In this document: piece after piece, positions 13,844-57,600 of the stretch
How positions within the stretch are numbered: the first letter of the stretch is position 1
Layout of the letters: each line of letters starts with the position of its first letter
Source: Mariniphaga anaerophila
GTDB lineage: Bacteria; Bacteroidota; Bacteroidia; Bacteroidales; Prolixibacteraceae
Assembly: GCF_900129025.1 (NCBI RefSeq)
Contig: NZ_FQUM01000001.1
Coordinates: 186,001 to 250,000 of the forward strand
Direction: 5' to 3'
Length of the DNA stretch: 64,000 nucleotides
The notes under the pieces: generated by a model
The model's input: the letters and a program-made list of their open reading frames with translations, nothing else
Told to the model about the DNA's origin: nothing
Database searches by the model: none
Position numbers and translations under genes: made by a program

Positions 13844-13852
13844 CCTCAAGCA

Positions 13853-16310: not shown

Positions 16311-16328
16311 CACTTAAATAGTAAAATT

Positions 16329-17003: not shown

Positions 17004-17234
17004 CCAAAACCACCTCTCTTCGCCAGGGGAGGGGAATCATTTAAAAAAGTTTTCCCTTTCTTTTTGGAAAAGGAAGAACCTGGTTCAGAACCGGAAATTA
17101 ACTTGGGGGAGGGGAGGGCAAGATGTGTTTTTGTATGCACAAAAACCTTTCCATCTTGCCCGGCAGGGGCCAGTCGCTTTTTCCAAAAACGACAAAAATT
17201 CCCTTCCCCTTGAAAACAAAAATTACAGGTATAA
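17004..17234. other. Candidate oriT: spacer with nested inverted repeats before the mob genes
   Basis: The central hairpin runs from 17116 to 17161. GGGCAAGATG (17116-17125) pairs perfectly with CATCTTGCCC (17152-17161). Inside it GTTTTTGT (17127-17134) pairs perfectly with ACAAAAAC (17139-17146) around a 4-nt loop. Smaller repeats flank it: TTTTCC/GGAAAA near 17051-17077 and GAACCTGGTTC near 17087-17097. Mobilization proteins usually act on an origin directly upstream of their genes, and relaxases of this type recognise an inverted repeat next to the nick. Position and structure fit; the nick site cannot be read from sequence. Confidence 0.5.
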
Positions 17235-17603: not shown

Positions 17604-17614
17604 ATCTTTTTCTA

Positions 17615-33346: not shown

Positions 33347-36300
33347 ATGAGGAAAATTAGGTTACTTAGCGCTCGACTATTTGTTATGAGCATGTGTTTA
33401 TTGTGTTCCATAACCGTAGTCAGTCAAATAAAAGGGAAAGTGACTAATGTCAGTGGCATTGGCATTCCTGGAGTTAATATCATAGAGAAGGGGACCAGCA
33501 ATGGCACAATCTCAGATTTTAACGGTGATTATGTAATTAATCTACAGAATGGAGACGCCGTATTGGCCTTCAATTTTATCGGGTTTAAACGAACCGAGGT
33601 TAACGTAGCAGGCAAAACAGTAATAAATGTTGTGCTTGAAGAAGAGGTAACTTTACTGAATGAGGTTGTTGCTGTAGGGTATGGAACACAGATTAAAAGA
33701 GAGGTAACGTCTTCCATTTCCACCATTACATCTCTTAACGACGAAGGAGGCGCCTCAATTGGTGAAGTATTGCAAGGGAAAGCTTCGGGTCTGCAAATCA
33801 CAAATACTGGTTCTACGCCGGGTGCTTCGATGAGAGTCCAGGTAAGAGGCACCAATTCAATAAATTCAGGAACTGAGCCATTATGGATTATCGATGGAGT
33901 TCCTGTTAATTCCGACCAGGAAAACAGCAATCTGCGATCCAGCGGAGTGTTGGATATTACTAATCCACTAGCAGACCTCAATGTTGATGATATTGCATCT
34001 ATCCAGGTTTTAAAAGATGCAGCATCAACATCTATTTATGGTTCAAGAGGTGCTAATGGAGTAATACTCGTTTCTACTAAGCAAGGTAGCACTGGCGTGG
34101 CCAACATATCGTTAACCACTGAATATGGCACATCGGAAGCAGTTAATTACAAAACGTATTTAAATACAGCTCAGCATTATGAGTTGCTGGATGAAATGGG
34201 TAAAAACTCAGGTAGAGATTTCAGTCATTGGGTGCCCTTTTACTTTGATGATGACAGAGGCCTTTATCCTTTTTACAACCGGGCGTATGCTGAAACGGTT
34301 GATAATAACTGGATAGATATGGTATTGCGCCAGGGCATGTTCAAAAGAATATCCACTTCGTTAAGCGGAGGCGGCAAAGGTGCCAGATACTATATCTCTT
34401 TTTGGACTAAAGATGCTACCGGAATAATGATTGGCGATGAGCGCACAGAATATGGGTTAACATCGAACCTGAATTTTGATGTTACAAAAAAACTCAGTGG
34501 CGCCATTAAAGCGAAAATTGGCTACAATAAATATGATTATGCACAGAAAGGCGGAAGTCTGGGCATTAACGAAGTTGGAAGAAATAACTGGGGAGCTAGA
34601 GCTGGTTGGAGAACCATAAACAGAAGTTCAACACCGATGATGCCTAGTCATACACCAAGTGGAGAACTTTTTGACCCATATGGAGGCTATAACCCATATC
34701 CTTCATTAATGGAAAATAATCAAATCAATAGAAATCAAGATTATAGAGGCAGTATAGTTGCTTCACTTGATTACAAACTTCTGGAAAACCTGGTGATATC
34801 AGCCAGAGGAGGTTATGATCATAACATACGTTCTCAGTTATTTCATATTACTGATGCGATTCGGTTAAAAAGCTCGGACAATAGAACAGGCTCAGCCAGA
34901 GGTACTCAGAATACAAGAATAAAATCAAATACAACATTAAACGCATTTGCTAACTATTCTAGGCGAGTAAATAGCCTGAAATTGGAATTGATGGCAGGAA
35001 CTGAAATGTTTGAAAGAAAAGATGAAGTACAGTTGGCCGATTTCGAAGACCTTCAAACGCAAAGGATTCAACTCGGGAATACAGAAGGAGCAACATTCTT
35101 AATGGGACGGTATTCAGTTGCCAGTGATCGGTTTGTGTCTTTCTTTGGAAGAGCAAATTTCTCTTTGAATAATCGATATCTATTGGGAACCAGCTATAGA
35201 CGCGACGGAGCTTCTGTTTTTGCTCCCAAAAATCGTTGGGGCGATTTTTGGTCAATCTCGGGCGGTTGGATTTTAAGTGACGAAGAATTTATGAGCAATC
35301 TCAAGGCATTTAATTTATTAAAACTCCGTTCAAGTTATGGTTCAACCGGAAATGCCAGTATTCCTAGTTTCAGCTGGATAAATACCTATCAAACATGGCC
35401 GTTGTATGGCAATTCCAATTCACTTGTTCTTGGAAATTTAGCCATTGATAACCTGACATGGGAGAAATCATTTACGTTCGATTTAGCTCTTGATTATGGA
35501 CTGTTTGAAAACCGAATTAATGGTTCAATTGGTTATTACCATACGCGAACTGAAGATATGTTGTTGAATACTCCTATTGCACTTAGCCATGGAGTTTATT
35601 CAGGTAACGCAGGACCAACGTCTTTAATTAATGTAGGCCAGATGTTCAATCAGGGTTTTGAAATTCAGATAAGTGCCGCTATTGTAAACATTAAAAATTT
35701 CAAATGGGAAGCAGATGTCAACTTGTCTACAAATAGGAACGAGGTAGGAAAGCTATCCAAGGAAATTAGCAATCCACTGCAGATAGGCTACTCTCCTGCA
35801 TTTGGAAACACACTTCAACTTAATTCTGTATGGACTGGTGAGCGGTTGGGGCGCTATTATATTGCAGAATACGCAGGTATGGATGAGCAAGGATTTGAAA
35901 CTATTTATGAAATTGATCAAGAAAAGTTTGCGCAAAGTGGCGGCCAGATTACCGAAAAAACCGGTAACATAGTGAGAGCTACATCCGAAAATATTCAGAA
36001 AAACAGGATGTTTCATAATAATAAAACAGGGTTGCCAACTTATTTTGGTGGTATAACTAATTCTTTTACCGTTAAAAATTTCACATTAGACGTTTCTTTT
36101 ACATTCTCCGGGGGAAACTATATCTACGACCAAACAGTTGCCAACAATGGCTTTGTATTACAGGGAGTTAATCCGATTGATGACAGGATCTACGGAAAAA
36201 CGTTTATCCCGGGTGTCAGGGAAGATGCAGAATACCCCATTCAAACGTATAATAATCTGGACGATACCGGAGCTCAGGTGGGGACACAGCACAGCAGGTA

Positions 36301-36580
36301 CCTGTACAAGGGTGACTATATAAGACTACAAAACATTGGGCTAAAATACAAGTTGCCTTATGCTTTACTAAAGAAAGTAGGAGTTAAGTCTGCAACACTG
36401 TATAGTACAGTGTCTAATTTATGGGTGTGGTCACCTTTCAAATCGTTCGACCCTGAGTTTGTTAACTATGGAGACATACATGCTGTCACTGCAGATCGCA
36501 ACCTGGGGCAGGGTTACGTAAAGTATGATCCTTTTCCAAAAGCTCGGACTATCACTATCGGAGCCAGACTTAGTTTTTAA
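33347..36580 (+). CDS. susC: SusC-like TonB-dependent outer-membrane transporter
   Basis: This 1077-residue protein has a signal peptide, a carboxypeptidase-regulatory-like domain (IKGKVTNVSGIGIPGVNIIE...NGTISDFNGDYVI), the TonB-box region (EVVAVGYGTQIKREV), a plug domain (VRGTNSINSGTEPLWIIDGVPV, VLKDAASTSIYGSRGANGVI) and a 22-strand barrel to the terminal TITIGARLSF. It imports oligosaccharides captured by its SusD partner, which follows after 20 bp. Length and motifs are normal for the class. Confidence 0.95.
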   Translation: MRKIRLLSARLFVMSMCLLCSITVVSQIKGKVTNVSGIGIPGVNIIEKGTSNGTISDFNGDYVINLQNGDAVLAFNFIGFKRTEVNVAGKTVINVVLEEEVTLLNEVVAVGYGTQIKREVTSSISTITSLNDEGGASIGEVLQGKASGLQITNTGSTPGASMRVQVRGTNSINSGTEPLWIIDGVPVNSDQENSNLRSSGVLDITNPLADLNVDDIASIQVLKDAASTSIYGSRGANGVILVSTKQGSTGVANISLTTEYGTSEAVNYKTYLNTAQHYELLDEMGKNSGRDFSHWVPFYFDDDRGLYPFYNRAYAETVDNNWIDMVLRQGMFKRISTSLSGGGKGARYYISFWTKDATGIMIGDERTEYGLTSNLNFDVTKKLSGAIKAKIGYNKYDYAQKGGSLGINEVGRNNWGARAGWRTINRSSTPMMPSHTPSGELFDPYGGYNPYPSLMENNQINRNQDYRGSIVASLDYKLLENLVISARGGYDHNIRSQLFHITDAIRLKSSDNRTGSARGTQNTRIKSNTTLNAFANYSRRVNSLKLELMAGTEMFERKDEVQLADFEDLQTQRIQLGNTEGATFLMGRYSVASDRFVSFFGRANFSLNNRYLLGTSYRRDGASVFAPKNRWGDFWSISGGWILSDEEFMSNLKAFNLLKLRSSYGSTGNASIPSFSWINTYQTWPLYGNSNSLVLGNLAIDNLTWEKSFTFDLALDYGLFENRINGSIGYYHTRTEDMLLNTPIALSHGVYSGNAGPTSLINVGQMFNQGFEIQISAAIVNIKNFKWEADVNLSTNRNEVGKLSKEISNPLQIGYSPAFGNTLQLNSVWTGERLGRYYIAEYAGMDEQGFETIYEIDQEKFAQSGGQITEKTGNIVRATSENIQKNRMFHNNKTGLPTYFGGITNSFTVKNFTLDVSFTFSGGNYIYDQTVANNGFVLQGVNPIDDRIYGKTFIPGVREDAEYPIQTYNNLDDTGAQVGTQHSRYLYKGDYIRLQNIGLKYKLPYALLKKVGVKSATLYSTVSNLWVWSPFKSFDPEFVNYGDIHAVTADRNLGQGYVKYDPFPKARTITIGARLSF

Positions 36581-36600: not shown

Positions 36601-38073
36601 ATGAAATATATTGTAACTGTGTTAATCTCCCTCTTACTTCTAAGTTGTGAAGACTTTTTTCAAGAAGTAGAAATGCCTGCAGATATTCTAACCACAGATA
36701 TTTCGTCTAATAAGGAATTAGAACAGTTGGTTAGTTCTGCTTATTTCGCCTGGCAAGGGTACCATGAAGGCATCTGCGATTTAAGCTTTATTATTCCGTC
36801 GTTTGCGTCAGACGAGGGAATTATTAGCGCAAGTCATGACATAAATGTAGAATATGGAAATCATGATCAATTGTATAACAGGAATACCTGGAATAATTCA
36901 ATTCCTTATTTGCAGTATGTATGGCAGTCAGGCTATGGAAGTGTGCATTTCGCCAATTTGGTTTTAACGCATTTGAACAGCAAGGGGCCATTTAACGACA
37001 GCGAAATTGGATGGGCAGACAGAATGAAAGGAGAAGCCTACTTCAACCGGGCATTTGCGTTTTACACATTGAGCAAAATATTCTGTCCTCCTTACGACGT
37101 AAACGGGGATATGACTCAACCCGGTATTATTTGTGATACGACAATATCTGAAGGGCCTTTTGATACAAGAGCATTGCAAAGCATTGATGGTACTTATAAA
37201 CAAATTATTAGTGATTTAAATAATGCCATTCAATTTCTTCCGGAAGAATACGAGGAAAATCGCGATCCGGAGTCATACCAGGATCGAGCTAAGCGAGATG
37301 CTGCCGAGTTTTTGTTGAGTCGGGTTTTCTTCCAGATGGGGCCTGAATTCTGGGAGAACTCTTTGGCATTAATAAATGAAATATTAGGAGACAATAAATA
37401 CCCGCTGAATGGTTCCCCTGCTGATGCTTACACTCAATCAGGGTTAGGACAAATGTCAAGTGAAACAGTATTTCAGTATGCCTCTTATAACGGTAACTCT
37501 CAGTGGAGATATCCGAGGGTTTATCACTTTTTTTCGGGAGGTTCGGCATCTGGCCGCCGAAAAATGTTTCATATGAACGACTCCTTTGCCGCTTTTGTTG
37601 GTTGGGATAATTCGGATGAAGCTGCAAAGGATTTACGATATAGCGAGTTGTTTACTATTTCTTACGGTAAAATATGGGCTGACAAATGGAAAGCAAGAAC
37701 CTACAGCTTCCCAATGATGCGCTCTCCTGAATTACACTTAACCCGTGCGCTTATTTGTCTTCTTACCGGAGAAGGTGGAGGTAATCAACAGGCGATAACC
37801 GATCTGAATATTGTTCGGAAAAGGGCTTACGGCGACAATTACGAACCACTGGATAATAGTTACAGTACCTCCGAGCTACTTGATATTACTCACAGGGAAC
37901 GTGCTATCGAGTTGTTTTTTGAAGGAGATCGATTGTATTATGTGCAAGCAATCAGAGGCCAGGTAAGCCCTGGTGACAGAACAGATCAGGTTGAATTGCC
38001 TTACAATAGCGACAAACTATACTGGCCTATCCCAGAACGCGAAGTTTTTACAAATGATAATTTAACTAACTAA
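36601..38073 (+). CDS. susD: SusD-like glycan-binding lipoprotein
   Basis: This 490-residue lipoprotein (signal MKYIVTVLISLLLLSC) has the SusD/RagB helical TPR scaffold: WADRMKGEAYFNRAFAFYTL, RAKRDAAEFLLSRVFFQMG, then SPELHLTRALICLL, ITDLNIVRKRAYGDNY and the end motif ITHRERAIELFFEGDRLYYV...LYWPIPEREVFTN. It forms the lid of the SusC transporter on the cell surface. The pair is the core of the polysaccharide utilization locus. Confidence 0.95.
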   Translation: MKYIVTVLISLLLLSCEDFFQEVEMPADILTTDISSNKELEQLVSSAYFAWQGYHEGICDLSFIIPSFASDEGIISASHDINVEYGNHDQLYNRNTWNNSIPYLQYVWQSGYGSVHFANLVLTHLNSKGPFNDSEIGWADRMKGEAYFNRAFAFYTLSKIFCPPYDVNGDMTQPGIICDTTISEGPFDTRALQSIDGTYKQIISDLNNAIQFLPEEYEENRDPESYQDRAKRDAAEFLLSRVFFQMGPEFWENSLALINEILGDNKYPLNGSPADAYTQSGLGQMSSETVFQYASYNGNSQWRYPRVYHFFSGGSASGRRKMFHMNDSFAAFVGWDNSDEAAKDLRYSELFTISYGKIWADKWKARTYSFPMMRSPELHLTRALICLLTGEGGGNQQAITDLNIVRKRAYGDNYEPLDNSYSTSELLDITHRERAIELFFEGDRLYYVQAIRGQVSPGDRTDQVELPYNSDKLYWPIPEREVFTNDNLTN

Positions 38074-38084: not shown

Positions 38085-39320
38085 ATGAAAAAATCTTATG
38101 GTATAGCAATTACAGTGATGTTGTTTGTGGCACACTTTGCACAGGCATCTGTTTTCGAAAATTTTAATGCAAGTAATGCTCCGGAGGGAACCTATGGAGA
38201 CGTTAGTTTTACCAGTTCATCTAACGGTTTAACATGGAATTTAACACAGTGCCGTTATATACCGGGCTTATATACAAATATTAATGGTAAAAGTGTCGCT
38301 TTAAAAAGCGATGGTGCAGGAATTATTCAATCACCGGTATTTCAAGGTGGGTTAAAGGAACTCTCTTTTAACCAGAGAGCCGGATGGATAACAGACGGTC
38401 AGGAGCGTTTAATTTCGGTTGAAATTGTTGATGAAGACTTAGGACAGACTACAACTTACGATTTTTCCAATGCTGGTGCGGATCAGACTATTTACGAAAT
38501 TCAAATTAATGGTTTAAACATAACTGGAAGTTATTCATACAAAATCACCAATAAAACAGAAGGAACGATTATTATAATTGATAATATAATGATGGTTGGA
38601 ACTGAAGATAATCTGGAAACAATAGAAAACGCCAGCATTGCTGACAATAGTTATGAAACAGGTTCCTTTACCGGTAATAATGGTGGCACGTGGCTGTATT
38701 CAAACGGAAGAACACCACTGGAATATATTATCGGAGGAGACAAAAGTATCATGTTAAAAGACACTTATGGCTATATCCAGTCAAATTTATTATCTAACGG
38801 GTTGAAAGAATTGAGCTTTCTGGCGGTACAGAATTGGATTGGAAATTCGGGAGTTCAAAATTTTCAGTTGAAAGTTTATGATGCCAATGATGACTTGGTT
38901 TTTGAAAAAAATGATTTGACATATGAGCGTCAAAGCGAACATCGGTTTGAATTGTTTCAATATACAATCAGCGGAATAGATATAGTGGGTGCTTGTTCAT
39001 TCCGCATTGTAAATGCTTCATCTAATATCGGAGAAATTGTGATTGATAACATTACCTGGAAGGATAAACCAATATCTACCGGTATTAAAGATACAGAAGT
39101 TGATAACCTTACGGTGTTTAGCCGGGAAAAAAATATTGTAATCAGAAAGGCTGGCAGAGAGATTGGGAAGGTGAGCGTTTATAATGTTTCGGGCCAGTTG
39201 GTTAACAGTATAGAATCAGCCAACAGAGAAGTCTCTATTCCCGTAGAAAGTAAGGGTATTTACCTAATTATGGTATCAGATCCTCTGGGTGTGTCTTCTA
39301 GCAAGGTACTTGTAAAGTAA
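38085..39320 (+). CDS. T9SS-secreted surface protein with two beta-sandwich modules
   Basis: This 411-residue protein has a signal peptide (MKKSYGIAITVMLFVAHFAQA) and a C-terminal type IX secretion sorting domain (VYNVSGQLVNSIESANREVSIPVESKGIYLIMV). Between them lie two copies of a module of about 150 residues (about 22-172 and 183-330) sharing the pattern kS-LK--G-IQS----GLKELSF----W and ending GEIVIDNITWKD or TIIIIDNIMMVG. Related modules occur in the next two proteins. The position after susD is that of surface glycan-binding proteins; binding is inferred, no catalytic motif is seen. Confidence 0.8.
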   Translation: MKKSYGIAITVMLFVAHFAQASVFENFNASNAPEGTYGDVSFTSSSNGLTWNLTQCRYIPGLYTNINGKSVALKSDGAGIIQSPVFQGGLKELSFNQRAGWITDGQERLISVEIVDEDLGQTTTYDFSNAGADQTIYEIQINGLNITGSYSYKITNKTEGTIIIIDNIMMVGTEDNLETIENASIADNSYETGSFTGNNGGTWLYSNGRTPLEYIIGGDKSIMLKDTYGYIQSNLLSNGLKELSFLAVQNWIGNSGVQNFQLKVYDANDDLVFEKNDLTYERQSEHRFELFQYTISGIDIVGACSFRIVNASSNIGEIVIDNITWKDKPISTGIKDTEVDNLTVFSREKNIVIRKAGREIGKVSVYNVSGQLVNSIESANREVSIPVESKGIYLIMVSDPLGVSSSKVLVK

Positions 39321-39357
39321 TAGAATCCAGAATTTAAGACGCATTAAAGAGTTAATT

Positions 39358-41640
39358 ATGAAATATATTATACTGTTATTATGTGTTTTCGTTTCTATAT
39401 CTTCATTTGCGCAAGATTTAACTGTTAACGTGCAGCTGGAGTATCAGTCCGAAAATACATTTAAACTGAATTTTAGTGAAAATGTAGATCCAGCCGAAGC
39501 CGCGGAAGTGACAAACTATACCATTAGTGGCACAGGCGGATTAACCGGAAATCCTGTTTCTGCTGATATTAGTGGAAGTGCAGTAACTCTGCTGCTGGCA
39601 TCTGACATGTCAGAACTTGAACCCAATGCGGGTATTGAAGTAAGAGTGAGTAACGTAACCGCTGTATCCGGCAAGGAACTAAATCCTCAACAATCCGTAG
39701 CAAAATATTTTGTTTGGCATTTTTGCGAAACTTTTTCTAAGGCTCCGTTAACAGGTGCTTATACCGATTATACTTATGTTGGAGAGCACAATCTGAACTG
39801 GACTTATTCCAGCGCTCGTGAGGATACAGAATATGAAAAAGGAATTATGTTGCGATTCAAAGATAGCAGTACTTTGAAACACAATTTTGGACAAGGTGTA
39901 GCATCCGTCTCTTTTCAGTTTTACACGGTTTGGTCAAACTATGATGATCGTTACTTTGAATGTGCAATAGCAGATCAGCTTTTAGCCGAGAATGCCATTG
40001 CTATTTCCGGAAATCCTTCAGAGGTAAAACTGTATACATATGATGACTTGAACATAATGCCAAAGGAAGAAGGGGTTCCTTTTGAGATAAAAAACACCAC
40101 CGTTACCAATCAAAATATTGTTATAGATAACGTGAAATGGACTAGCTATTCCCCGGCATTTGTCGATACTGTTTTGCTAAGTTCACAAAAACAATTTGTA
40201 TTGGGTTATAATCAGTTAATAGATTCCCGCGATGTGACCATCGATAATTTTAAGGTGGAATTTGATGGGGTTGAAACGGAACTTTCAACAGTGGAGTATT
40301 TCGAAGGCAACATGGTTAAAATAACGACAAAAGAAGACATCTCGGGCTTGGATAATAAGTCTGTGATTACTGTTACATCCAATAATGTCAGAAATTTAAT
40401 CAATGGTTTATCTGTTGAAAATAAAAAGAGTATTACCGTTGAAAAACCCGAGGTAGTTAAGCAGTTGGAATACATCGATTTTACTACCCTGCGTTTGCGT
40501 TATACGTATGCTATTGACGAAACTGACGCCCTAATGACCGACAACTATAAATTGGTTTTTTCTGATGGCGTTGAAACCAATCCGTCAGCAGTAGTTATGG
40601 TAGATGACAAAACATTTGATTTAACAGTTCCATCTACTCAGCACAGCGCTGATGGCACAACAATAACCGTTGATGTAATAAATGTAAAAGGTAAAAACGG
40701 AGTTTTTACTGTTGCAGAACCTAATAATCGTGCTGCCATAATTATTGACCGAACAGCTCCCGAAGTATTGCCTGAGTTAGAGTTTATAAATTCAGGTACG
40801 CTAATCCTTTATTTCTCGGAAGCTGTGAAGCCATCCCTTGAGGTTTCTGACTATGTTATTGGCGGCACTGCAGGACTAAATGGAAACGTGCTAAACGTTG
40901 ACATTAATGACTCTGCAAGTGTTGTACTAACAGTCGCTGATATGAGTGAGTCGTTGGTTCATGATAACACAATAACAGTTTCAGCGAACAATGTTTTTGA
41001 TGTTGCTGGCAATAATTTGTCAGAAAACAATACTGCAACTTATGTTATCAACCTTTCGAAACCATTAAATAAAATTGTTGATGTTAAAAACATTAGGCAT
41101 AGAACCGCTGATGTAATCATTGATGTAGACAGACCGGGAACAGTTTACTGGAGTGCTTATGTTGGAGGGAGCTCTGGTCCTGATGCCGATGCTGTATATT
41201 ATGGAGATGGTTTTGTAAATGGAATGCAAGTAGTTGATAAGTCTGTTTCTCAAGCAACCATTACGGTTGATGAGTTGGTTTGGGCAACAAGTTTCGACGT
41301 TTATACATTAGTTGAAAGCAGGGAAGGAGTTTTGTCTGAGCTGGATATGACTACAATTGAAACGACGAGTGTTGAAGAAGGGTTTGATGATGGTGAGCTT
41401 GGAAACTATAAGTCGGTGAAAGTGACGTTAAAATCAGGTGTCATCCAACTTGAGCGAATGGACAAACAGGCATCTTATGAACCTATCCACGTGAAGGTTT
41501 ATAATCTGGCAGGAGCAATTGTTTACAGTAAACAATTCCGCAATGAAACCATGGATATACATGGTCTGCCTTCAGGAATATATCTGGTGTCTCTTTGGTT
41601 TGAAGATCATATAGAAACCACAAAAATAATTATGGAATAG
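39358..41640 (+). CDS. T9SS-secreted multi-domain surface protein with Ig-like repeats
   Basis: This 760-residue protein has a signal peptide (MKYIILLLCVFVSISSFAQ). The first Ig-like repeat (about 20-115, FKLNFSENVDPAEAAEVTNY) recurs near 475-570 (LILYFSEAVKPSLEVSDYVI), with related units between. One copy of the beta-sandwich module (about 120-265) ends QNIVIDNVKWTSY. A T9SS sorting domain ends the protein (VKVYNLAGAIVYSKQFRNETMDIHGLPSGIYLVSLW). It probably binds the polysaccharide at the cell surface. It closes the first part of the operon, with a terminator following. Confidence 0.8.
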   Translation: MKYIILLLCVFVSISSFAQDLTVNVQLEYQSENTFKLNFSENVDPAEAAEVTNYTISGTGGLTGNPVSADISGSAVTLLLASDMSELEPNAGIEVRVSNVTAVSGKELNPQQSVAKYFVWHFCETFSKAPLTGAYTDYTYVGEHNLNWTYSSAREDTEYEKGIMLRFKDSSTLKHNFGQGVASVSFQFYTVWSNYDDRYFECAIADQLLAENAIAISGNPSEVKLYTYDDLNIMPKEEGVPFEIKNTTVTNQNIVIDNVKWTSYSPAFVDTVLLSSQKQFVLGYNQLIDSRDVTIDNFKVEFDGVETELSTVEYFEGNMVKITTKEDISGLDNKSVITVTSNNVRNLINGLSVENKKSITVEKPEVVKQLEYIDFTTLRLRYTYAIDETDALMTDNYKLVFSDGVETNPSAVVMVDDKTFDLTVPSTQHSADGTTITVDVINVKGKNGVFTVAEPNNRAAIIIDRTAPEVLPELEFINSGTLILYFSEAVKPSLEVSDYVIGGTAGLNGNVLNVDINDSASVVLTVADMSESLVHDNTITVSANNVFDVAGNNLSENNTATYVINLSKPLNKIVDVKNIRHRTADVIIDVDRPGTVYWSAYVGGSSGPDADAVYYGDGFVNGMQVVDKSVSQATITVDELVWATSFDVYTLVESREGVLSELDMTTIETTSVEEGFDDGELGNYKSVKVTLKSGVIQLERMDKQASYEPIHVKVYNLAGAIVYSKQFRNETMDIHGLPSGIYLVSLWFEDHIETTKIIME

Positions 41641-41650
41641 CTTTTCCGTC

Positions 41651-41688
41651 ACCAAGTTAAGGACTTAATGTCTTTAACTTGGTTTTTC
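41651..41688 (+). terminator. Internal terminator of the polysaccharide locus
   Basis: ACCAAGTTAAGGAC (41651-41664) pairs with GTCTTTAACTTGGT (41670-41683) over 14 positions, one of them G-U, around a 5-nt loop, and is followed by TTTTCCTT. It separates susCD and the binding proteins from the three beta-helix genes, so the latter are expressed by read-through or their own promoter. Confidence 0.88.
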
Positions 41689-41731
41689 CTTAAAATCAGA
41701 AAATTAAAGCTGTTAAATAAAATCCTCTGAT

Positions 41732-44083
41732 ATGGATGGTTTTTTTCGAAAGAGTTTTTTGTTGTTTTTCGTGAGTCTTATGCTCACGAATTCCGACTTG
41801 CTCGTGGCGCAAAACTCAATTTTTCATGAAGACTTAGAAGCGGAGAATTGTCCGGAAAGTAATTATAACTATGGAACGTTCAAAAGCTCATCAAATGCTT
41901 ATTGGTGGACATATAAAGATTGCAGAAAAGCAACAGGAACATATACGATAGAGGGCAAAAGCCTGATTCTTAAAAATAACACGGGAAGCGTAGAATCCTC
42001 TTGGCTTAATGGTGGAGTCAATTATGTTTCATTTAAAGTTAATAAGTGTTGGTCCTCCAATGAAAAAAGAGTATTTAAACTGGAAATAATTCCGGATAAT
42101 GGAAGTTCCACAGTCTCACAACAGTTTTCTTTGGATGGAAATATTGCTGAAGACACTGAATACTCTCTTGATAATATAAATATTCAAGGATTATTCAAAA
42201 TAAAAATTTCTAACCTAACTTCATCTACAGCGATAGTTGTAGATGAAATTAAGTGGCAAAGTTACGGGATAGTGTCTGAAACGTGGGAAACTAATATTTT
42301 ATCTGATTTTGAAGCTGATCCCGAAAATAGTGTTTTATATGATTACTCATATGCGGGCTATAAAGGTGGGGAAGAGGCTTTTCCTGATGTTGCCGAAATT
42401 GCTGTAGTAACAGATTTTGGAGCAGTGGCTGATGATTTAATTGATGACACCCAGGCTTTTCAGGATGCTATCGATTATGCGGCGTCTCAAGGAGGAGGGG
42501 CCGTTGTTATCCCGAAAGGTAAGTTCCTGTTCAATGCTGCAGCTGATGATTCTTATGTTACAATGAAAGACAATGTAGTTCTGAAAGGAAGTGGAAACGC
42601 AGAAGATGGAACTATTCTATTTCTAGCTAATTACATTAATGAAGCTTATGGACGCGGAATGATTTATGCTGCCTCCGGTAGTTTCGTCGGTGCTCCCTAT
42701 CTTTCTGTTACCAAAAACGCAGCTAAAGGCAGCCACCTTCTAACCGTAGCTTCAACAAACGGATTGGTTGCCGGAGATGCTGTGCGCTTACGGATGTTTA
42801 ATCCAGCAAAGAATGGTGAAAGACAAGATGACTTAAGCCGATTATTGTCTCATCCGTTGCCCCCTGAAACAACCTGGACATTTTATAAGAGATTTTCTCC
42901 ATTCGAATGCTTTTTTGAAATTGAAGAGGTGGTAGATGGAAAAACGGTAAAATTGAAGGAATCTTTAATGCAAACAATATCAACAGAGTGGAATCCCAGA
43001 TTGGAAAAACTAACTTTTATTGAAAATGTGGGTATTGAAAACCTCAGGCTCGAGTCTGATTTTCAGGGAGGATACAGCCATCATTTAAATTGGGAAGTTG
43101 ATTATGGTTGGTGTGGAATAGAATTAGCGAATGTCAAGAACGGATGGGTTAAGGATTTGGTTATTAAAAATATGGTATGCGATATACAAATAGCTTCTTC
43201 AAAAAATGTTACCGTTCAAAATGTTGTAATAGAAGGATTGGATGGACATCATGGTGTAAAAACTCCTTCTTCGTCTTTTTGCTTGGTTAAAGATGTTTTT
43301 TTTAATGCATTCAGAACACATACTGTTGGTACGGAAGGGGGTGCGCACGGCAATGTATTTACTAACATTGGAATAAATTACCTCGATGGAATGATCGATT
43401 TTCACGGAGGCGGTTTTGCATCCCACAATCTTTTTGAATGTATTAATAATGTTTATACTTATGGCGGAGGAGCTGAACAAAATATGCCACACTCCGGTCA
43501 ATACAATGTTTTTTGGAACCTGATAGGTTCTAAGAAACAAGATTCGAGAAGGCCCGGCATGGACTTCTTTTCCGGGCTATGGAACTACTGGGATTATTAT
43601 TCTAAGTATGGGTTAAATTACGAATGCTATAAACTATATCCCAAAAGTGTGTTAGCCGGCGTTTATCATCCCGACTATTTAATGGAAGTAGAACACAGCA
43701 CTACCGACCGGTCTGATGAATGGATAGAAATCGAAGGGTTCAATCAAGAAGGCATAAGGCCGGCATCGTTATATCATTACCAGCTAAACAACAGATTGTC
43801 GGGATATAATGATGTTGTCTCGAGCAACAAAAAACTGAATAAGCAAAATGTGAATACATCAGGAAAGGCTTTGTATGCAGTAGAGCAGGGCGTTATTTTT
43901 GATGAACACTTTGGGAAGAGTAAACTCACAGTGTACGATATTCAGGGAAAGGTCATTGCTTCTTCAAAGGTTAATATAAATAAAGGATATATGTATCCAT
44001 TGAATATTCCTTTTGGCATTTATATTATCTCAATAGAAGGTGAGAGAGGGAACTATGTTGAGAAGGTAGTAAAAAACAGATAA
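41732..44083 (+). CDS. Right-handed beta-helix protein with T9SS sorting domain, candidate lyase 1
   Basis: This 783-residue protein has a signal peptide (about 1-27), one beta-sandwich module (about 28-188), [20 protein letters not shown] and a Pectate_lyase_3-like start of a beta-helix ([20 protein letters not shown], then [16 protein letters not shown]). The helix core has [15 protein letters not shown] (about 449), [14 protein letters not shown] (about 504), [15 protein letters not shown] (about 556) and [15 protein letters not shown] (about 584), then [17 protein letters not shown]9SS sorting domain is at the end. It shares all these blocks with the next two genes. Uronate-polysaccharide lyase activity is inferred from the GH105 in the locus; a GH28-like hydrolase is the alternative. 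DUF4955-type annotation is likely. Confidence 0.75.
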
Positions 44084-44100
44084 TCAAAAATGTTATCAAA

Positions 44101-46911
44101 ATGAAATACAGGTATTTAATAACAATAATAGCATTGCTGGTTGTGACATTTAGGCCTGCTAATGCTCAAATAAAATTGCAGGCTATTGAGGATTGCTACA
44201 TTAATAACGGCGAATTCGCTAATGATAATTTTGGTGATGCCACCAAACTGTTAATTAAGAATGGAAGTGCAGGTTATACACGCGAAATACTTTTAAAGTT
44301 TAGAAACAAAAAGAATATAGAGGTTAAAACGGCAGTGTTATTTGTTCGCGGAAGAAACTTTGCGAAAGACGATAAAAAGCTAATAATCGACGTATTGGGC
44401 TCTGACTCTAATTGGAAAGAATCAAAAGTAAACTGGAACTCCAAACCGAAAGCTTATGGTACGATTGGAACTTTTGAACTTATTGCCACACCTAAAAGTG
44501 AATGGCATACAGTTGTTTTGGATGCCGACTATGTAAACAAGCATTTGCAAGAGGGCAATTTGTCCGTAACGTTGGTTCAAAAAGAAAACAATGGTTTAAT
44601 GGGGTTTATTTTATCCAAAGAATCAGAATGGGCGGGAAAGATTGGTGGTATGCAGGCTTACCTCGAATTAAACGGAGAGTTGCCTGAGAACAATGAAAAC
44701 ACTGATGCTACTTTAAATGCAACTGTATCACCGGAAATATCTCAAGAAGTAATTTTGTCAGGTCCTAAAACTATTTCTGTAACAACAGATTATTCGATTA
44801 GCCCAAATGGCTTTAGCACAGAAGAGTTAATTGTAAAGGGCAGCAGCGATCCTCAGAAGCAGGTTGAATGTTTTTTGAGTTACGATATAGGCAGTATAGA
44901 CGGGTATGTGGTAAAAGCATCTCTATATCTGAATGCAAAAGCACTTCAGGGGGCTGCAAACATACAATTATACGACGGAAAAGGCAGTAAGCTGACAACG
45001 CCCGTTACATGGGAAAAGAGACCTTCAACAATGTCGAATGTCGGGAATGTCACAATCGACAATAACGATGAATTTAAATTGTATCAAATAGACATCTCTA
45101 AGTTTGTGCGAACAAACCATAATACGGGAAAGCAGTATTGCACTATTTTATTGAAAGGAGACGACAATGGTAACCCTGTTGAGATAGGTTCTCTTGCCTC
45201 TAACAGCAAAAGATCTTTTTTGGTAGTTAACACCATCGACAGGAAAAAGCAGGAAACTCATTCAGATCAAGCTCTTGCCCCTGTGTACCCTGATGTAAAA
45301 GAGGATAACAGGTTATGGGAGCAGTGGATAAAAAAGAATCCTTTGCCCGAAAATGGTTGGGTGCCCGAATTATGGAAAAAATATGTTTGCCAGGGAGGAA
45401 TCTCTCAATTGCACAATTTTTCTTATGCTGGTTATAAATATGGAGAAGAGGCTATTCCGGAAATTCAAAATGTACGCTTAAAAGTTACTGATTTTGGTGC
45501 TGTTCCTAACGATGAAATTGACGACACAGACGCCATTCAAAAAGCTTTGGATAAAATTTCTAATAAAGGTGGGGTACTGTTGTTCCCTAAAGGAAAATAC
45601 ATTATAAACGGAGATGTTGACGAATTTAAAAAGTTAACGCTTAACAGTAGCAATGTAATTATCAGGGGAGAAGGTTCCGGAAATGATGGAACAGTGTTGT
45701 TTATGGCTAATAAGTTTCTGCCTCCTGATGGGTGGGGAGACTTTATTTTTGAGGTAGGAAATAAAAAACCACACCTGGAAAACAAAGCTTTCACTGAATT
45801 AAGCCAAAACGCCAGAAGAGGTACATTTCAAATAGAAGTAGAAGATGCAAGTAATTTTAGTAAAGGAGATAATATACAAATATATTTAAAGTCTCATGTA
45901 GTTAATGGAAAGCGTCAGCAAGAATTAGGTCAGATTTTAACTTATCCATTAGTTCCTGAAATTGAGTGGACCAATTTTAAAAAATTTAGTCCTTACAACA
46001 CGTTTAATCAGATTGTTAGTATAAACAACAACACAATAACTCTGAAAAAGCCGTTGGATATAGATATGGATCTCAAGTGGAAGCCAACAGTAAAAAGGCA
46101 GGCTTTTTATGAAAATATCGGTTTTGAGAATATTCGTTTTGAAGGAAATTGGCATGGGCCATATATCCATCACGGCTCCAGAGAGATGGATTATGGATGG
46201 TGTGCGTTGCGTATTGCTAATGCGTGCAATAGCTGGGTGAAGAATGTGGCATTTCATAACTTAACATGGGATTTAACAGTTTTAGAATCAGCTAACGTAA
46301 CCGTACAGAATGTAACGGTTTCCGGAACTGATGGCCATCATGGTATTAAAGCACCGGGCTCAAGCAGTGTGCTTGTAAAAGACTGTGAATTCACTGCTCA
46401 TCGAACACATAATATTGGAGGATCTGGTGCGATGGATGGGTGTGTGTTTACGAATATAAAAATAACCGATCCTCATGGTACTATTGATTCGCATGGAGGA
46501 GGCTTTCCTGTGTATAACCTTTTTGAAAATATTACCAATGTAAAAGTGTCGGGAGCAGGCTCCATTGATAACATGCCACATATGGGGAGAGAAAATGTGT
46601 TTTGGAATTTGCATGCTCAAGCAAAAGAAAAGTCAAGCCACCATTCGGAACTTGATAATGAATTCTTTCCATATGGTGTCTGGAATTATTACGACAGCAT
46701 TAAAAAGCGGGGAGGAATATCTTTCGATTGTTACAAGCTATACCCGGGAAGCGTGGTTATTGGAGTGTACAACGATGCTAAAGCACTTCAGATCGGACAA
46801 AATTCTGAAGATAGAAACGAAGATTTTATTTATGTTGAAGGTCTTAACAGAACAAATGTATGGCCGGCTTCGCTGTATAATGCTCAATTTAATATGCGAC
46901 TAAAAAAGTAA
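44101..46911 (+). CDS. Right-handed beta-helix protein with two CBM96/DNRLRE-like domains, candidate lyase 2
   Basis: This 936-residue protein has a signal peptide ([23 protein letters not shown]). Two DNRLRE/CBM96-like domains follow (about 24-196 and 215-380), recognisable by [42 protein letters not shown] and the matching second set ([24 protein letters not shown]). Then [39 protein letters not shown] and the beta-helix with [15 protein letters not shown] (about 690), [14 protein letters not shown] (about 743), [14 protein letters not shown] (about 795), [15 protein letters not shown] (about 823) and [16 protein letters not shown]. No T9SS domain or lipobox, so probably periplasmic or secreted otherwise. 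Paralogue of its two neighbours. Confidence 0.75.
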
Positions 46912-46918
46912 TGTCAAA

Positions 46919-48643
46919 ATGAAAATATTCAGTTATGTTTTGGGACTGCTGTTGATGATAACATCATGTGAAAACAGCAAACACAATCAGTTATTTCTAG
47001 ATTTTAAAGAAAAGGGGGTAGATGCTTTGTTACCTGACTTTTCGTATGCCGGATACAAATATGGCGAGACTTCAGTTCCTACTGAAAAAGGAAATGAATA
47101 TGATGTAACCGATTATGACATTTACCCGGATATCGATACGGATCAAATACAAAAAATTCAGGCTTTAGTAGATTCTGTGGGTCGAAACGGTGGCGGAGTA
47201 ATTTTTTTCCCGAAAGGAGAATATTTATTTAACGCGATAGACGGGGAACGGAATTTTCTGTCAATCGATTATTCTCACATCACATTACGAGGTGAACAAG
47301 GGACACAATTTGTAAAATGCCAAACATTAATACAGTTAGAAAAAGAACCATGGTTAAGCCCCGCTATTATACGTGTTGGAAATAAGATACAAGGCAGTGA
47401 GAAATTTTGGGGGTTAGATAGTAAATACAATAGCGGAACTGCTGATAGTTGCGAAATATATCATCCAGATTACCTTGTAAGTTTGAAAGAGTCGGCACGA
47501 AAGGGAAGCACACAAATAATTACCGAAAATAATTCTTTTATAAACAGTGGTGATTTTGTACTTGTAGCTATGTACGGCCAAAAGGATGATGAAAGCCTGA
47601 TAAAAAGGATACTGAGTCCTTGGAAGGAATTCGAATCCTACATGACGTCAGCACTAGAATCTGATGAAAAAAGTATGCCCTCATATCAATGGTTGGTTGA
47701 AGTAGAACAGACAAAAGGAGATACCATCTGCTTAAAACAACCCTTGAGGGAAACAATAGATATGAAATATGATCCTGTTGTGGCTAAAGTTCCGATGCTT
47801 ACCGAAGTGGGACTCGAAAATATTGAATTTACCAGTCGTTGGAATGGACATTACTGTCACCATGGTTGTGAGGGGTCAATAAACAGAGAGGCTCTAATTA
47901 TGGACTATGGCTGGAATGCTATTCAATTTGTAAGAGTTGCGCATGGGTGGATTTCAAATGTTAAGATTAAGGATTATGTAAATCCCATTTATATTCTTGA
48001 CTCCAGAAATGTGACCATCGATAACTTGGTATTAGACGGAGCCAACGGGCATAGTGGCGTTAAGTTCTATTCTCATGCCTGTGATAATTTATTGCAAAAC
48101 GCGGTTTTTAAAGCCAGTTATACTCATATGGTTAGTTTAGAGGGTAATGCATATGGAAATGTTGTAAGAAAAATAAAATATGACACAGAAGGAAATGTAT
48201 CGAGAGGTGATTTTGATTTTCATGGGTTCAGCTATAAGTCATTTTCCCCACCTTCATGCAACCTTTTTGAACTGATCGAAGGTTTTGGTCATATAACTGG
48301 AGGTGGTGCATTGGAGAATCTGCCTCATACAGCTGCTAAGAATACTTTCTGGAATGTTTCTTTAGATGGACTTAAAAATGGCGACGATGTGTTTCAATAT
48401 TGGGTATATGAATTTGAGAGATTTGGTTCTCGAAAAAGTTACGATGATTACAAATATTTTCCCGGGACTATCCTGGTTGGTGTAAAATCAACACAAGGCG
48501 AACTGGTCATAGACAAGAGAAAAGACACTTGGAATAAAGACTGGATATATGTTGACAGGTTAAATAACTCTGTTTCACCTCTGTCTTTGTATGAAGCACA
48601 GCGTAATTACCGGCTTAAAAACAACAGTGCAGCTAAGAAGTAG
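46919..48643 (+). CDS. Right-handed beta-helix lipoprotein, candidate lyase 3
   Basis: This 574-residue lipoprotein (MKIFSYVLGLLLMITSC) starts its mature part almost directly with [19 protein letters not shown], then DVTDYDIYPDIDTDQIQKIQ and GGGVIFFPKGEYLFNA. The core has HHGCEGSINREALIMDYGWN (about 314), DGANGHSGVKFYSHACDN (about 376), FDFHGFSYKSF (about 433) and ENLPHTAAKNTFWNV (about 466), then DYKYFPGTILVGV. It is the most compact member of the three and lacks extra binding domains. Compared with the other two it has Ser for the second His of GHHG and Phe-Ser for GG of DFHGGG. Lipidation suggests a periplasmic or surface anchored enzyme. Confidence 0.75.
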   Translation: MKIFSYVLGLLLMITSCENSKHNQLFLDFKEKGVDALLPDFSYAGYKYGETSVPTEKGNEYDVTDYDIYPDIDTDQIQKIQALVDSVGRNGGGVIFFPKGEYLFNAIDGERNFLSIDYSHITLRGEQGTQFVKCQTLIQLEKEPWLSPAIIRVGNKIQGSEKFWGLDSKYNSGTADSCEIYHPDYLVSLKESARKGSTQIITENNSFINSGDFVLVAMYGQKDDESLIKRILSPWKEFESYMTSALESDEKSMPSYQWLVEVEQTKGDTICLKQPLRETIDMKYDPVVAKVPMLTEVGLENIEFTSRWNGHYCHHGCEGSINREALIMDYGWNAIQFVRVAHGWISNVKIKDYVNPIYILDSRNVTIDNLVLDGANGHSGVKFYSHACDNLLQNAVFKASYTHMVSLEGNAYGNVVRKIKYDTEGNVSRGDFDFHGFSYKSFSPPSCNLFELIEGFGHITGGGALENLPHTAAKNTFWNVSLDGLKNGDDVFQYWVYEFERFGSRKSYDDYKYFPGTILVGVKSTQGELVIDKRKDTWNKDWIYVDRLNNSVSPLSLYEAQRNYRLKNNSAAKK

Positions 48644-51604: not shown

Positions 51605-54600
51605 ATGAATGTAAAATTTTTACCTCTAAAAATTGTGTTAATGGTCCTGCTAAGCTTTGCTTTTGGCAGCAATGTAGCAGGACAAAGTGTATCCTATTCG
51701 AACGGGATGCAAAAAGGTGTTGTCCGGATAAAAATAAAACCTGAATTATCAGGAACACTGAAGGAACAGAATGCTACAAAATCGGCTTATGTTGTTACTG
51801 GTTTTTCATCCTTCGACAAGTTGAACAAAGAAGTAAAAGCCACGCAGCTAAAGCGGGTTTTTAAGTATTCACCCAAACACGAAGACAAGTTAATAAAACA
51901 CGGACTTAACTTGTGGTACGAGATTAAGGTTTCAGGCGATACTGACATCAAAAGTGTAGTTTCGCAGTACAAAAAACTGGAAGTAATTGAACTTGCCGAA
52001 CCGATTTACGAAAAGTCGTTGATAAATCCGGGCACTCCGGTCAGAGTAAATTCAATCGGAACAAAAAGTGTAAATGCCGACGAAACACTTCCTCCGTTTA
52101 ACGACCCGTACCTGCCGCGCCAGTGGCATTATAACAATACCGGGCAAAGTGGTTTTATGCCCGGAGCCGACATAAATCTTTTTAAAGCCTGGGAAATTGA
52201 AACCGGCTCGAACAACGTGGTTGTTTCAATTCATGATATGGGCGTGCAATGCGACCACGAAGACCTCGCTTCAAATATGTGGACCAACCAGGCCGAACTT
52301 AACGGAAAAGATGGCGTTGATGATGACGGGAACGGTTACGTGGATGATATCTACGGATTTAATTTTGCTGATAATGTAGGTGGAATTATTCCGGGCGACC
52401 ACGGAACCCACGTTGCAGGTACTGTTGCGGCAGTTAATAATAACGGTATTGGAGTTTCCGGAGTAGCCGGCGGAGACGGAACAACTCCCGGAGTCAAAGT
52501 TATGTCGTGCCAGATTCTTGGTGGTGTAAGCCAGGGAAATACTCCCGATTCATACGTGTACGCTGCAAATAATGGCGCAGTTATTTCCCAAAACTCATGG
52601 GGGTATCAAGTTGAAGGTGCCTACGAGCAGTCGGTTTTGGATGCCATTGACTATTTTATTGCCGAGGCCGGAAATTATGAAGGAAGCCCGATGAAAGGCG
52701 GAGTAGTAATTTTTGCCGCAGGAAATAGTTATGTAGACGGTGACTGGTACCCGGGCTGTTATGAAAATGTTCTTGCTGTGGCATCTCTTGACGCTAAAAA
52801 CGAAAAAGCAGGATATTCCAATTATGGAACATGGATAGATATTTCGGCCCCGGGTGGCGAGTTGGAAGATAACACCGAAGAATACTACTCCAACGGTGTA
52901 TTAAGTACGCTTAAAGATGACGGATACGGATACATGGACGGCACTTCCATGGCATGTCCGCATGTTTCAGGAGTTGCTGCTTTGGTGGTTTCGCAGTTTG
53001 GATCGGCAGAATTCACTCCGGTGGCTTTAAAAACCCATTTACTTACCGGAATAAACGATATTTATAAGTTAGCGGGAAATGCTGCTTACGCTGGTCAGCT
53101 GGGAAAAGGAAGCACAAACGCTTACCTGGCCTTAGGAAAAGACGAAGGCGTAGCTCCCGATGCAATAGCAAACCTCACGGTTAAAGGTATATCACAGGAT
53201 TTTGTAACTCTCGAATGGGTAATTCCTGCCGACGAAGATGACGAAAAACCTGTTAACTTTCAGATTTTATACTCCAAACAAAACATAACAGCTGCAACTC
53301 AGGAGTATGCAAAAAAAGATATCATTAGTGTTGAAGGGAAGGTAGGAGATACAATTACTTATGACGTTCAAAACCTGGATGCACTAACCGAGTACTATTT
53401 CGCTGTTCGTTCCATCGACAGATGGAGCAATGTATCTGAATTTTCAAACATTGTTACGGCGAAAACCAACGATGGTCCCGATGCATGGATCGACTATTCG
53501 GCTTTTGCATACGAACTCGAATATATTGGAGAAAACCAGGAAACATTTGAGCCTGTTTACGACACTGTTTACCATCTTCCGTTTGATATAGATGCACAAA
53601 CCACTACTGCTGCTGAGAACTCATTTTTTCTGCACAATTCAGGTGCGGGAATACTAAAATGGGATGCCGAACAACGCCATGTTTCTACTATTGATGCGTG
53701 GGGCGCAACTTACCTGCGTTACCCCAAACTTGTTGGTACCCTCACCGAAAAAAAGGCCGAAGTAAAAGAAGTTCTTTTACCAAAAACCAGCATCCAGGTT
53801 CTTGCCCAGGAATCAACAGAAGAATCGATGCTTTATTTCGACGATTATTCCAGTTTCTATTATGTGGGAGAAACCGACCTTTCCTATTCTAATTCAGAAG
53901 CAACACGTTTTCAGGTTACTTCCACCGAAGGGTTTAACTTAACCAATGTACAGACGCTTTTGAATTATACGAGTTCGAAAAAATCGCCGGTAATTCTCGA
54001 AGTCTATGCAGGTCAGACGCTCGAAAAGGCCAAGCTGAAGTATCAACAGGAATTGACCGACGTTGTTCCAGGTTGGAACAGTGTTCAGTTAACAGAGCAA
54101 TTATTTCTGGATGAAGGAACATATTTCTGGCTGGTATTACACGTTCCTGCAGGTCCGTTATATCCTTTGGGAACCGGTGTTGAAACCAATAAAAGTTATT
54201 CAGAAAACTGCTATATAAGTTTCAACTTTGGTAAATCGTGGACTCTTTTTGAAGATTTATACGGAAACAACCTGCTTACCTGGGCAATTGTTCCGAGTAG
54301 TTTTTACAAAAATATGGGAGAATATTTTACTGTAGCTCCCTTGTCTGGAAGTATTGATACTAATGATAGTACGAAAATTGATATCGATATTGACGCCTCC
54401 AAATTGATTAACGGTACTTACAATGCAAATGTGGTTGTAAATACCAACGAATCTGGCGAACCCATGCTGCGTGCCCCGCTAAAGTTTAACGTAACCGGGC
54501 AAAAACCAATTATCAACAGCAAACAGGTAGTTGACCTCGGCAGCACGGTTGTCGGAACAGAAAGTGTGCATACTGTATCTTTATCCAATACCGGATATGG

Positions 54601-57600
54601 TAATTTTTCATATCCTGATATCAGCTTTTCTAATTCTGAGTTTTCGCTGGCTTCCAGCTTTTTAAATACTATTAATCCTCAGAGTGAGTATTCTTTTCAA
54701 ATAAAATACAAACCAGAGAAAGCCGGTAATTCAAATGCAAAAGTTACATTATCAAACTATTTAGGCGATAAATATTCATTTCTTGTTTCCGCAGTAGCGG
54801 CTGAACCGCCGGTTGCAAAACTGATACCCGACAGCAAGTATTTTGATGATGTTACCATTGGCGATACCGTGAGTGGCGAATTCTTTCTGAAAAATGAAGG
54901 GAAATATCCGCTTACTTATTACTTCCCGACATTTACTAATTCCGACGATATAAAAGTGGGAGAAGACGTACATATGTTTGGGTATTCTGCTAAAAATAAC
55001 CAGGGCGGAGTTCTTTCAACTCCTGAATACAAATGGTACGAAATTTCTGGTTCAGGAACTTCAATAACTGATTACAGCCGTGAGAATAGATACTGGTTTT
55101 ACCCGGTTGAATTGGGCTTCGGATTCCCGTTTTTCGGAGAAACTGAAACACAGGTTTATGTTACTAACTACGGGTTGCTGTCTTTCGATACGAATTCTTC
55201 TTTTAATTTCTCCGCGGTCAGATTTAAAGATAGTGACAATCCCGATAGAATGATATCTGCATATGGTCAGCAAATTGACCTGGGCAAAGGTGGCGCTGTT
55301 TATTATCAGGATTTGGGCGATATGTTTGTTGTTCAGTACGAGAAAGTTATTCTTGATACTTATGACTGGAATACAGACCAGTTCAGCACCAATGAGCTGA
55401 CATTTGAAATTGTGTTGCATAATGACGGTAATATCAGCATTTATTATAAAGATACAGACGGCCTCGATCCGGAATTGTTAGCCTCGTCATTCGTAGGTAT
55501 CGAAGATCAAAATCAGAACGATGGATTGCTTATTACAGAATACAACAATCACAATCTGAATTTGACAAACAACACAGCAATTGAAATTACAAACCCGGGA
55601 CTGGGACTGGTATTTGAATTGTCCAATCCGAATGGAACAATAGGTATTAACGATTCTGTACTCATCGAATACAAAGCAAAAACCGATATTTTGAATATGG
55701 GATTGCATACCGAAAAGGTACCTGTAATTACAAACGATCCGTTTAATAATCCGGGAATCTATTCTCTGAATATAAATGTTACAAAAGGTGGCGATGCAGA
55801 TTTGAGCGTACTCGATTCTTCTATTGATTTTGGTGATGTTTTCCAATCAGACGAAGTTTCGTACAACCTATGGGTTATAAATGCCGGAAAAGCAAGCGAT
55901 ACTTTAATTTCGGTTACTACAATCGAAAACAATTTTTCTGTTGATGGTAACACTACGGCTATTCTTTCTCCAAACAGGAAACAGCTTTTAAAAGTATCAC
56001 CAAAAACTTCTGAGCTGGGCGAATACAAAGATACGATTGTAGTGGTCTCAAAAACAAAAACACTGAAAGTAGCGCTTCATGCCAATATTGTAGAAGCACC
56101 TGAAATTCATCTGAATCTGGCTTCAATTACAGATACATTGCAAGCTGGCGAGTTAAAAACATACCCGCTAACTGTTTCGAACAACGGAGGCAATAATCTT
56201 TATGTAGCTCCCGAAAACACAGACTGGATACGCATTGCAGAGCATAAGGCTGACAAAGAAGCTGCGGCTGTGGAAATTCCCGAATTTACCTATAACTGGT
56301 CAACAAGTAATCAGGAAAAAGGTCCTCAATATTCGTGGGAAGAAATTAAAAACAGCGGAACAAAGGTGGAATTATCGTTATTCCCAGGGGATGGCATGCC
56401 GTTCTTTTCAGACGCTGTTGAATTGCCTTTCAGCTTTAACTTTTACGGGAAAACTTATAATTCCATACACATTGGTTATAATGGTGTAATAACCCTAAAC
56501 AACCCGGATGGAAATTCCTATCCAATGGGCGCAACAGGAACTTTCCCCAATAGCGACGAGCCCAACAATATTATAGCTCCGATGTGGGCATTTAGTTCTG
56601 AATACTCATTTGCTGATGAATATGGGATATTCTATAAAATAGACGAAGACCACATTACGGTAGAATGGGTGAACTTTATAGATGGATTTGGAATGGGAGA
56701 AGCCATCTCTTACCAGGCAATAATTTATGCCAGTGGAAATATTAAATACCAATACAATTATGGTAATTCCACGTCTGTGTTGATACCTTCTATGGGAGCA
56801 GTAGGAATTGAAAATGAAGATGGGACTGTCGGTACAACCATATCTTACAGAGAGGGAGGATTAATTTTCGATAAAACAGCTATTCTGTTAACACCAATCC
56901 AAAGATATACCGTTGCTCCCGAGTCGTCAATGGCTTTCGACCTGACAGTAAATACCTCAAGTTTGTATTCGGGTACATATACCAATAGTTTGAGCTTGTT
57001 AAACAATGCTCCGGGTGCAGAACAACTTTCAATACCTGTAAGCATCACCGTAGAAGGAAGCGCAAAACTGGAGTATGAAGGTTATTACGATTTTGGAACA
57101 TTAATGGTTAAAAAAAATCCGGATGCCGCTGCATGGGAGCCTCCATATACCGCTTACCGAAAAAAATTCGAAATTAAAAACAGCGGAGTTGATTCTGTTG
57201 AAGTATCGGGATTTGACGTTTCAAAAGCTCAGAACGTAACCATCGAGGCTTATGTTTTGGGAACCGATTTCTTTGGAAATCCGTCATGGCAATGGAACGA
57301 TGTACAAAATTTGCCTGGCTTTAACTGGTCTACAGGAACAGCCAACCGAATTTTTATTGAACCGAAATCCAGCATGCAATTGCGTGCAACAATAACTCCG
57401 GAAAGCAGTTTTAGCATTGAGGATACACTTTTAATTGAAACCAATTATCTTGACGGTACTCCTTTGCAAATAGCTTTTGGCGGGAAGACAGAACTTCCTC
57501 CGGTATTCAATTCTTCAGAAAAAGAAATTCATGTTTATACAAATACTGAAGATGACATCAAAGAATACTCGTTCTCAATTGATAATAAAAATGGGGCATC

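Follow-up and report, generated by a model that had tools for sequence, protein, structure and literature searches.

Family PL29 has one well-studied founder, BT3328 (BtCDH) of Bacteroides thetaiotaomicron, which acts at the cell surface as an endo-lyase on chondroitin sulfates and hyaluronan (PMC6994673, PMC9067506). No solved structure of the catalytic part of PL29 was found in the searches made here. BT3328 is reported to share an N-terminal region with the neighboring protein BT3329 (Ndeh et al., PMC6994673). The three adjacent paralogues considered here, A, B and C, are encoded in a stretch of 64,000 nucleotides from Mariniphaga anaerophila (NZ_FQUM01000001.1, positions 186,001 to 250,000), hereafter the window, whose own numbering is used below. 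An earlier note on this DNA had put them forward as a new polysaccharide-lyase group. A lyase activity is indeed likely in view of their homology to BT3328, their fold and their residues, while the new group shrank to a deep branch of the PL29 superfamily. Within that superfamily, the three proteins belong to a divergent clade, termed W, and are probably polysaccharide lyases with a beta-helix fold. Their features were as follows.

41732-44083, + strand: paralogue A, 783 residues; N-terminal module, PL29-like beta-helix domain and C-terminal sorting signal of the type IX secretion system (T9SS)
41807-42307, + strand: N-terminal module of A (residues 26-192), homologous to stretches in the 411- and 760-residue proteins encoded upstream
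42320-43834, + strand: PL29-like catalytic domain of A (NCBIfam, alignment)
43901-44077, + strand: T9SS type A sorting domain of A (TIGR04183, E 6e-7, 29.4 bits against a cut-off of 23)
44101-46911, + strand: paralogue B, 936 residues; signal peptide (by eye), CBM96/DNRLRE region, PL29-like domain
44170-44625, + strand: CBM96/DNRLRE module of B, best of two matched stretches (PF24517 E 2.4e-38, NF033679 E 3e-22, 8wab E 5e-12)
45397-46908, + strand: PL29-like catalytic domain of B (family match; AlphaFold model of 45250-46908)
46919-48643, + strand: paralogue C, 574 residues; lipoprotein-type signal MKIFSYVLGLLLMITSC (by eye), PL29-like domain only
47015-48640, + strand: PL29-like catalytic domain of C (NCBIfam)

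Relation to family PL29

The three genes were intact open reading frames separated by short gaps. They shared a domain of about 500 residues, with 43% identity between B and A and 35% between B and C; the comparison of A with B (BLASTP E 2e-137) excluded chance similarity. All motifs reported earlier for these proteins (SYAGYK-GE, HH...DYGW, GH(H/S)G(V/I)K, D(F/S)HG, N(M/L)PH and YK-x-x-P) were recovered in the alignment, where S-Y-A-G-Y-K-x-G-E, HH, D-Y-G-W, G-H-x-G-x-K, T-H, D-x-H-G, N-x-P-H and Y-K-x-x-P were invariant. The Pectate_lyase_3-like start was likewise confirmed, PF12708 being present in all three (E 2e-11 to 6e-8). The suspected DUF4955 (PF16315), covering the C-terminal part of the helix, exceeded its gathering score of 25 bits in B (35.2) and C (29.7) while A remained below it (23.1); the domain is a name without function, for which the literature search returned no papers.

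The best family was BT_3328_fam (NCBIfam NF058554, 'BT3328 family hyaluronic acid endo-lyase'), with E values of 1e-41 (A), 2e-57 (B) and 4e-42 (C), the second-best NCBIfam family being weaker by many orders of magnitude. B and C covered the catalytic part of the profile, A reached position 665 of 840, and all 92 homologues scanned matched it as well. The scores of 143 (A), 195 (B) and 145 bits (C) were far under 1100 bits, the NCBI equivalog cut-off for whole BT3328-like proteins, which only one of the 395 genomes of the phylum passed in our search. A hidden Markov model (HMM) built from gut PL29 alone scored 195, 146 and 131 bits on the three domains, over 98-99% of its length (E 1e-56 for B, 8e-42 to 4e-37 for A and C); gut proteins scored 688-850 bits with the same model and those of a marine clade, M, 360-456 bits. 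Judged from E values and coverage, ordinary dbCAN thresholds would call all three proteins PL29. The statement that the locus contained no recognized lyase therefore stood by Pfam names but not by NCBIfam, since BT_3328_fam matched A, B and C. The same tie to BT3328 led us to reject a wholly new family.

A scan of named genomes gave 80 relatives, spread over Bacteroidota, Verrucomicrobiota, Planctomycetota, Spirochaetota and other groups, and further ones came from whole-genome searches. The tree built on 138 domains grouped A, B and C with 14 others as clade W (17 members, Shimodaira-Hasegawa-like approximate likelihood-ratio test 99), whose remaining members came from Labilibaculum, Lutibacter, Wenyingzhuangia, Ochrovirga, Flavicella, Puteibacter-like and further genomes. 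One genome is probably Puteibacter, since the copy that it carries was identical to that of the named record. A and B were sisters (95) and C paired with an uncultured Flavobacteriaceae protein. Under a site-mixture model, a tree of 63 domains also displayed W as a single clade (93), with the gut PL29 clade, M and others on the opposite side (100), and a joint clade of W and gut PL29 was rejected (approximately unbiased test, p 1.1e-12). Broad searches gave no relatives of A and B above about 45% identity, and a plasmid search returned a single Flammeovirga homologue (39% identity).

Similarity to an established CAZy family was thus found, yet in a separate clade, and both clade and score led us to reject simple membership of PL29. 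By sequence, the three proteins form part of a deep, separate branch within the PL29 superfamily and represent neither an unrelated family nor an entirely new kind of enzyme. That they are ordinary PL29 members, sharing its known specificity as endo-lyases for chondroitin sulfate and hyaluronan, has the best family match on its side; it is nevertheless unlikely, the identity to gut PL29 amounting to 25-30% and the clade being distinct.

Fold and conserved residues

The AlphaFold2 model of the B domain, made with 92 relatives, was a right-handed beta-helix (predicted local distance difference test 88.9, predicted template modeling score 0.92), and so was that of the gut PL29 domain (94.3 and 0.94), with its elements in the same order. 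The nearest solved structures of the B and gut PL29 models were those of a K1 capsule-specific lyase (7W1C/7W1D, Z 24.6 and 23.4), and an alginate epimerase/lyase (8JA4/8JAZ) was near both (Z 23.9 and 20.8). Identity in these structural alignments was 12-17%, and sequence matches were confined to a common N-terminal stretch; the shared fold alone shows no function.

Polygalacturonases (GH28) and the epimerase AlgE4 came next (Z 21). These neighbors, together with a domain start that matches the Rhamnogalacturonase A/epimerase family PF12708, would suit GH28-like beta-helix hydrolases or C5-epimerases acting on a uronic-acid polymer. Such a function is nonetheless very improbable: by sequence the entire catalytic part matched PL29 only, PDB sequence matches were confined to the first 80 residues or so, no solved structure matching the catalytic part, and the GH105 gene of the locus implies unsaturated products.

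Conservation was counted by column over the 138 domains, and the residues concerned are given below in B numbering.

46168-46173, + strand: H690-H691 (HH block), kept in clade W and PL29
46336-46350, + strand: H746...K750 (GHxGxK), His in all W, gut PL29 and M, Lys only in W
46408-46410, + strand: H770, kept in 99% of the 138 domains
46486-46494, + strand: D796-x-H798, E-x-H in gut PL29
46579-46581, + strand: H827 of NMPH, His invariant in W, Asn in gut PL29 and clade M

A core common to W and gut PL29 consisted of H690, H691, D697, H746, H770, D/E796, H798 (95% of all domains), P826 and Q929. The four His blocks, regarded earlier as the mark of a new group, thus belonged mostly to the superfamily. 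Among the motifs only K750 and H827 were specific to W, each present in 17 of 17 members; K750 was replaced by Arg in 90% of gut PL29 and by His in half of M. From the 138 relatives compared, a small set of residues emerges as catalytic candidates for the entire superfamily.

Rungs of the B helix, placed by sequence and DSSP, started at about residues 711, 733, 757, 781 and 807. H746 and H770 shared rung offset 13; D796 and H798, on a rung longer by two residues, had offsets of 15 and 17. The loop with HH and Asp immediately preceded the corresponding strand of an earlier rung. The expected beta-helix was obtained, and this register supports a grouping of the conserved residues in a single groove: judged by rung register and spacing, the conserved His, Lys and Asp would lie on a single face of the helix. 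The active site would then hold HH and Asp in the loop, followed by H746/K750, H770, D796/H798 and H827 on successive rungs, among which the catalytic base and acid may be sought.

All core residues conserved in W, including K750 and H827, were found in A, B and C alike. This speaks against the idea that one or two of them are non-catalytic binding proteins while the remainder cut. The presence of three paralogues with differing accessory parts in a single locus, and of the module of A in putative binding proteins, lends that idea some weight, but we hold it to be improbable. Of the functions considered for A, B and C, that of a lyase has the best support: the closest characterized relative, BT3328, is a lyase, the beta-helix is nearest to the capsule lyase and the alginate epimerase/lyases, and the His/Lys/Asp set is kept. 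This function is likely and well supported by sequence and model, activity, cellular location and substrate being inferred.

Clade W in other genomes

Twelve relatives' loci of the polysaccharide utilization locus (PUL) type were examined (L031-L035, L042, L047, L048, L064, L141, L143 and L157). All 12 harbored a divergent GH88-like gene and most an M-clade PL29 relative; sulfatases of the SGSH type occurred in at least nine and PL8 in eight (L033, L034, L035, L042, L047, L048, L064 and L143). Locus L141 harbored a clear chondroitinase B (PF14592, E 4e-136) beside its W member; this PL6 enzyme is of a different family, and A, B and C displayed no PF14592 match. HTCS (hybrid two-component regulator) and SusCD genes were also present in loci of W relatives. 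The company of GH88-like, PL8, chondroitinase B and sulfatase genes points to glycosaminoglycan-like substrates for most of clade W, and also favors the reading of A, B and C as ordinary PL29 enzymes. A control gut PL29 gene (L100) also adjoined PL8 and a sulfatase.

Clade W is thus a deep branch, common in marine Bacteroidota, that stands beside PL8, chondroitinase B and sulfatase genes; the literature search found nothing on it in papers on marine chondroitin loci. The automatic equation of PL29 with chondroitinase is unsafe for W-type proteins. In a published genome analysis of a verrucomicrobial isolate, an alginate-induced operon carried automatic PL29 'chondroitinase' labels (PMC13274419), which fits the idea of varying specificity within the superfamily.

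Several members departed from the common architecture. The megaplasmid of Flammeovirga kamogawensis encoded a W-like protein of 1835 residues with CBM96 and a T9SS tail (L157, 17865-23372), beside a sulfatase, a DUF4955 protein and GH88. A natural fusion of a W-clade lyase domain with a GH43 domain was found in L042 (9878-13054), whose locus also held GH2, GH95 and PL8. In one related genus (g181), W members began after the SYAGYK segment (L144, 10431-12062; L145, 9463-11079; L115, 1357-2985); those of L144 and L145 were outside any sugar locus, adjoining a protein of about 1220 residues, which in L144 was a histidine kinase.

The window locus and its substrate

Besides A, B and C, the window locus comprised the following genes.

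27788-31825, - strand: HTCS-like regulator, similar to regulators of relatives' loci
32213-33286, + strand: GH88/GH105-type unsaturated uronyl hydrolase (PF07470 E 3e-77; closest structure, ulvan enzyme 4CE7)
33347-36580, + strand: SusC-like TonB-dependent transporter (sequence reading, similarity to SusC of relatives' loci)
36601-38073, + strand: SusD-like protein (position and sequence reading)
38085-39320, + strand: surface protein of 411 residues with two copies of the N-terminal module of A and a T9SS tail; candidate surface glycan-binding protein
39358-41640, + strand: Big_5/T9SS protein of 760 residues with the module of A; candidate surface glycan-binding protein

The locus resembled that of BT3328 in its HTCS-SusCD organization. 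The N-terminal module shared by A and its neighbors parallels the architecture of BT3328 and BT3329, although these modules need not be related, and in place of the N-terminal region of BT3328 the window proteins carried CBM96 (B) and T9SS tails. The founder of CBM96 binds alginate (PMC9971899).

The GH105-like gene noticed earlier was confirmed; among structures its product matched 4CE7, an ulvan unsaturated rhamnoglycuronyl hydrolase (208 bits), followed by 5NOA and 4Q88. Family scans found no sulfatase, PL8, chondroitinase B or GH88-like gene of the relatives' type in the window locus. Conventional lyases were absent from the locus and present elsewhere in the genome, as five PL8 and eight heparinase II/III-type matches, so that the general lyase activity of the genome does not depend on A, B and C. 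With 48 sulfatase, five PL8 and eight GH88/105 matches, the organism is, by its gene content, well equipped for sulfated uronic-acid polysaccharides outside the window locus.

These gene contents bear in both directions on the reading of A, B and C as ordinary PL29 enzymes. The missing partner genes, and a GH105 nearest to ulvan and other GH105 structures rather than to glycosaminoglycan GH88, argue against it; unsulfated hyaluronan needs no sulfatase, and PL8 and sulfatases are at hand elsewhere in the genome. For the preferred reading, as divergent lyases of clade W, the lack of sulfatases together with a GH105 of ulvan/arabinogalactan type suggests a substrate that is probably an unsulfated, glucuronate-rich polysaccharide. 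The differences from the relatives' loci (no sulfatase, PL8 or GH88-like gene, a 4CE7-like hydrolase, CBM96) likewise make an acidic, glucuronate-containing, probably unsulfated target the most likely one.

A, B and C would act on such a uronic-acid polysaccharide through beta-elimination; the resulting 4,5-unsaturated uronyl ends would then be removed by the GH105 encoded in the locus. A, with its T9SS tail and a module common to neighboring surface proteins, may act outside the cell or at its surface; B, with a signal peptide and CBM96 and with no sorting tail found by Pfam and NCBIfam scans, is probably periplasmic; C is a predicted lipoprotein. A more far-reaching proposal, which we put forward tentatively, is that W is a separate lyase family beside PL29, with Lys and His replacing the PL29 Arg and Asn, acting on a substrate that PL29 does not cut, and that the window locus is a three-compartment relay (secreted, periplasmic, lipoprotein) on an unsulfated glucuronate polysaccharide.

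Several points weigh against A, B and C being lyases of the PL29 superfamily. Activity is known for none of the W-clade proteins, and the trees placed the clade outside PL29 and its nearer relatives. At two of the conserved groove candidates the residue is a different one (K for R, H for N), so that chemistry or substrate may differ too. Hydrolases and epimerases also use beta-helix folds of this type, and the products of lyases encoded elsewhere, such as the five PL8, would likewise require GH105.

Across three adjacent proteins (38085-42307), the module of about 150 residues was present four times, twice in the 411-residue protein and once each in the 760-residue protein and A; the copies outside A matched that of A at 35% identity (E 8e-22), 26% (5e-8) and 30% (4e-8). 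It gave no Pfam name above cut-off and is, from its distribution, possibly a surface or glycan-binding module.

Upstream of the locus, genes of a conjugative element were found at 6064-18517 (TraG ATPase, TraM, coupling protein, MobA/VirD2 relaxase), and a DDE transposase (DDE_Tnp_1 with DUF4372) lay between this element and the locus regulator (25692-26996). No SusD ortholog or sister PUL was detected in 199 relative genomes at E 1e-50; this, together with the conjugative element and transposase directly upstream, makes a recent acquisition of the locus possible. Further downstream, at 51605-59293, the window encoded a protein of 2562 residues which, by eye from its translation, displayed subtilisin-like motifs (HGTHVAG, GTSMACPHVSG) and a T9SS-like end.

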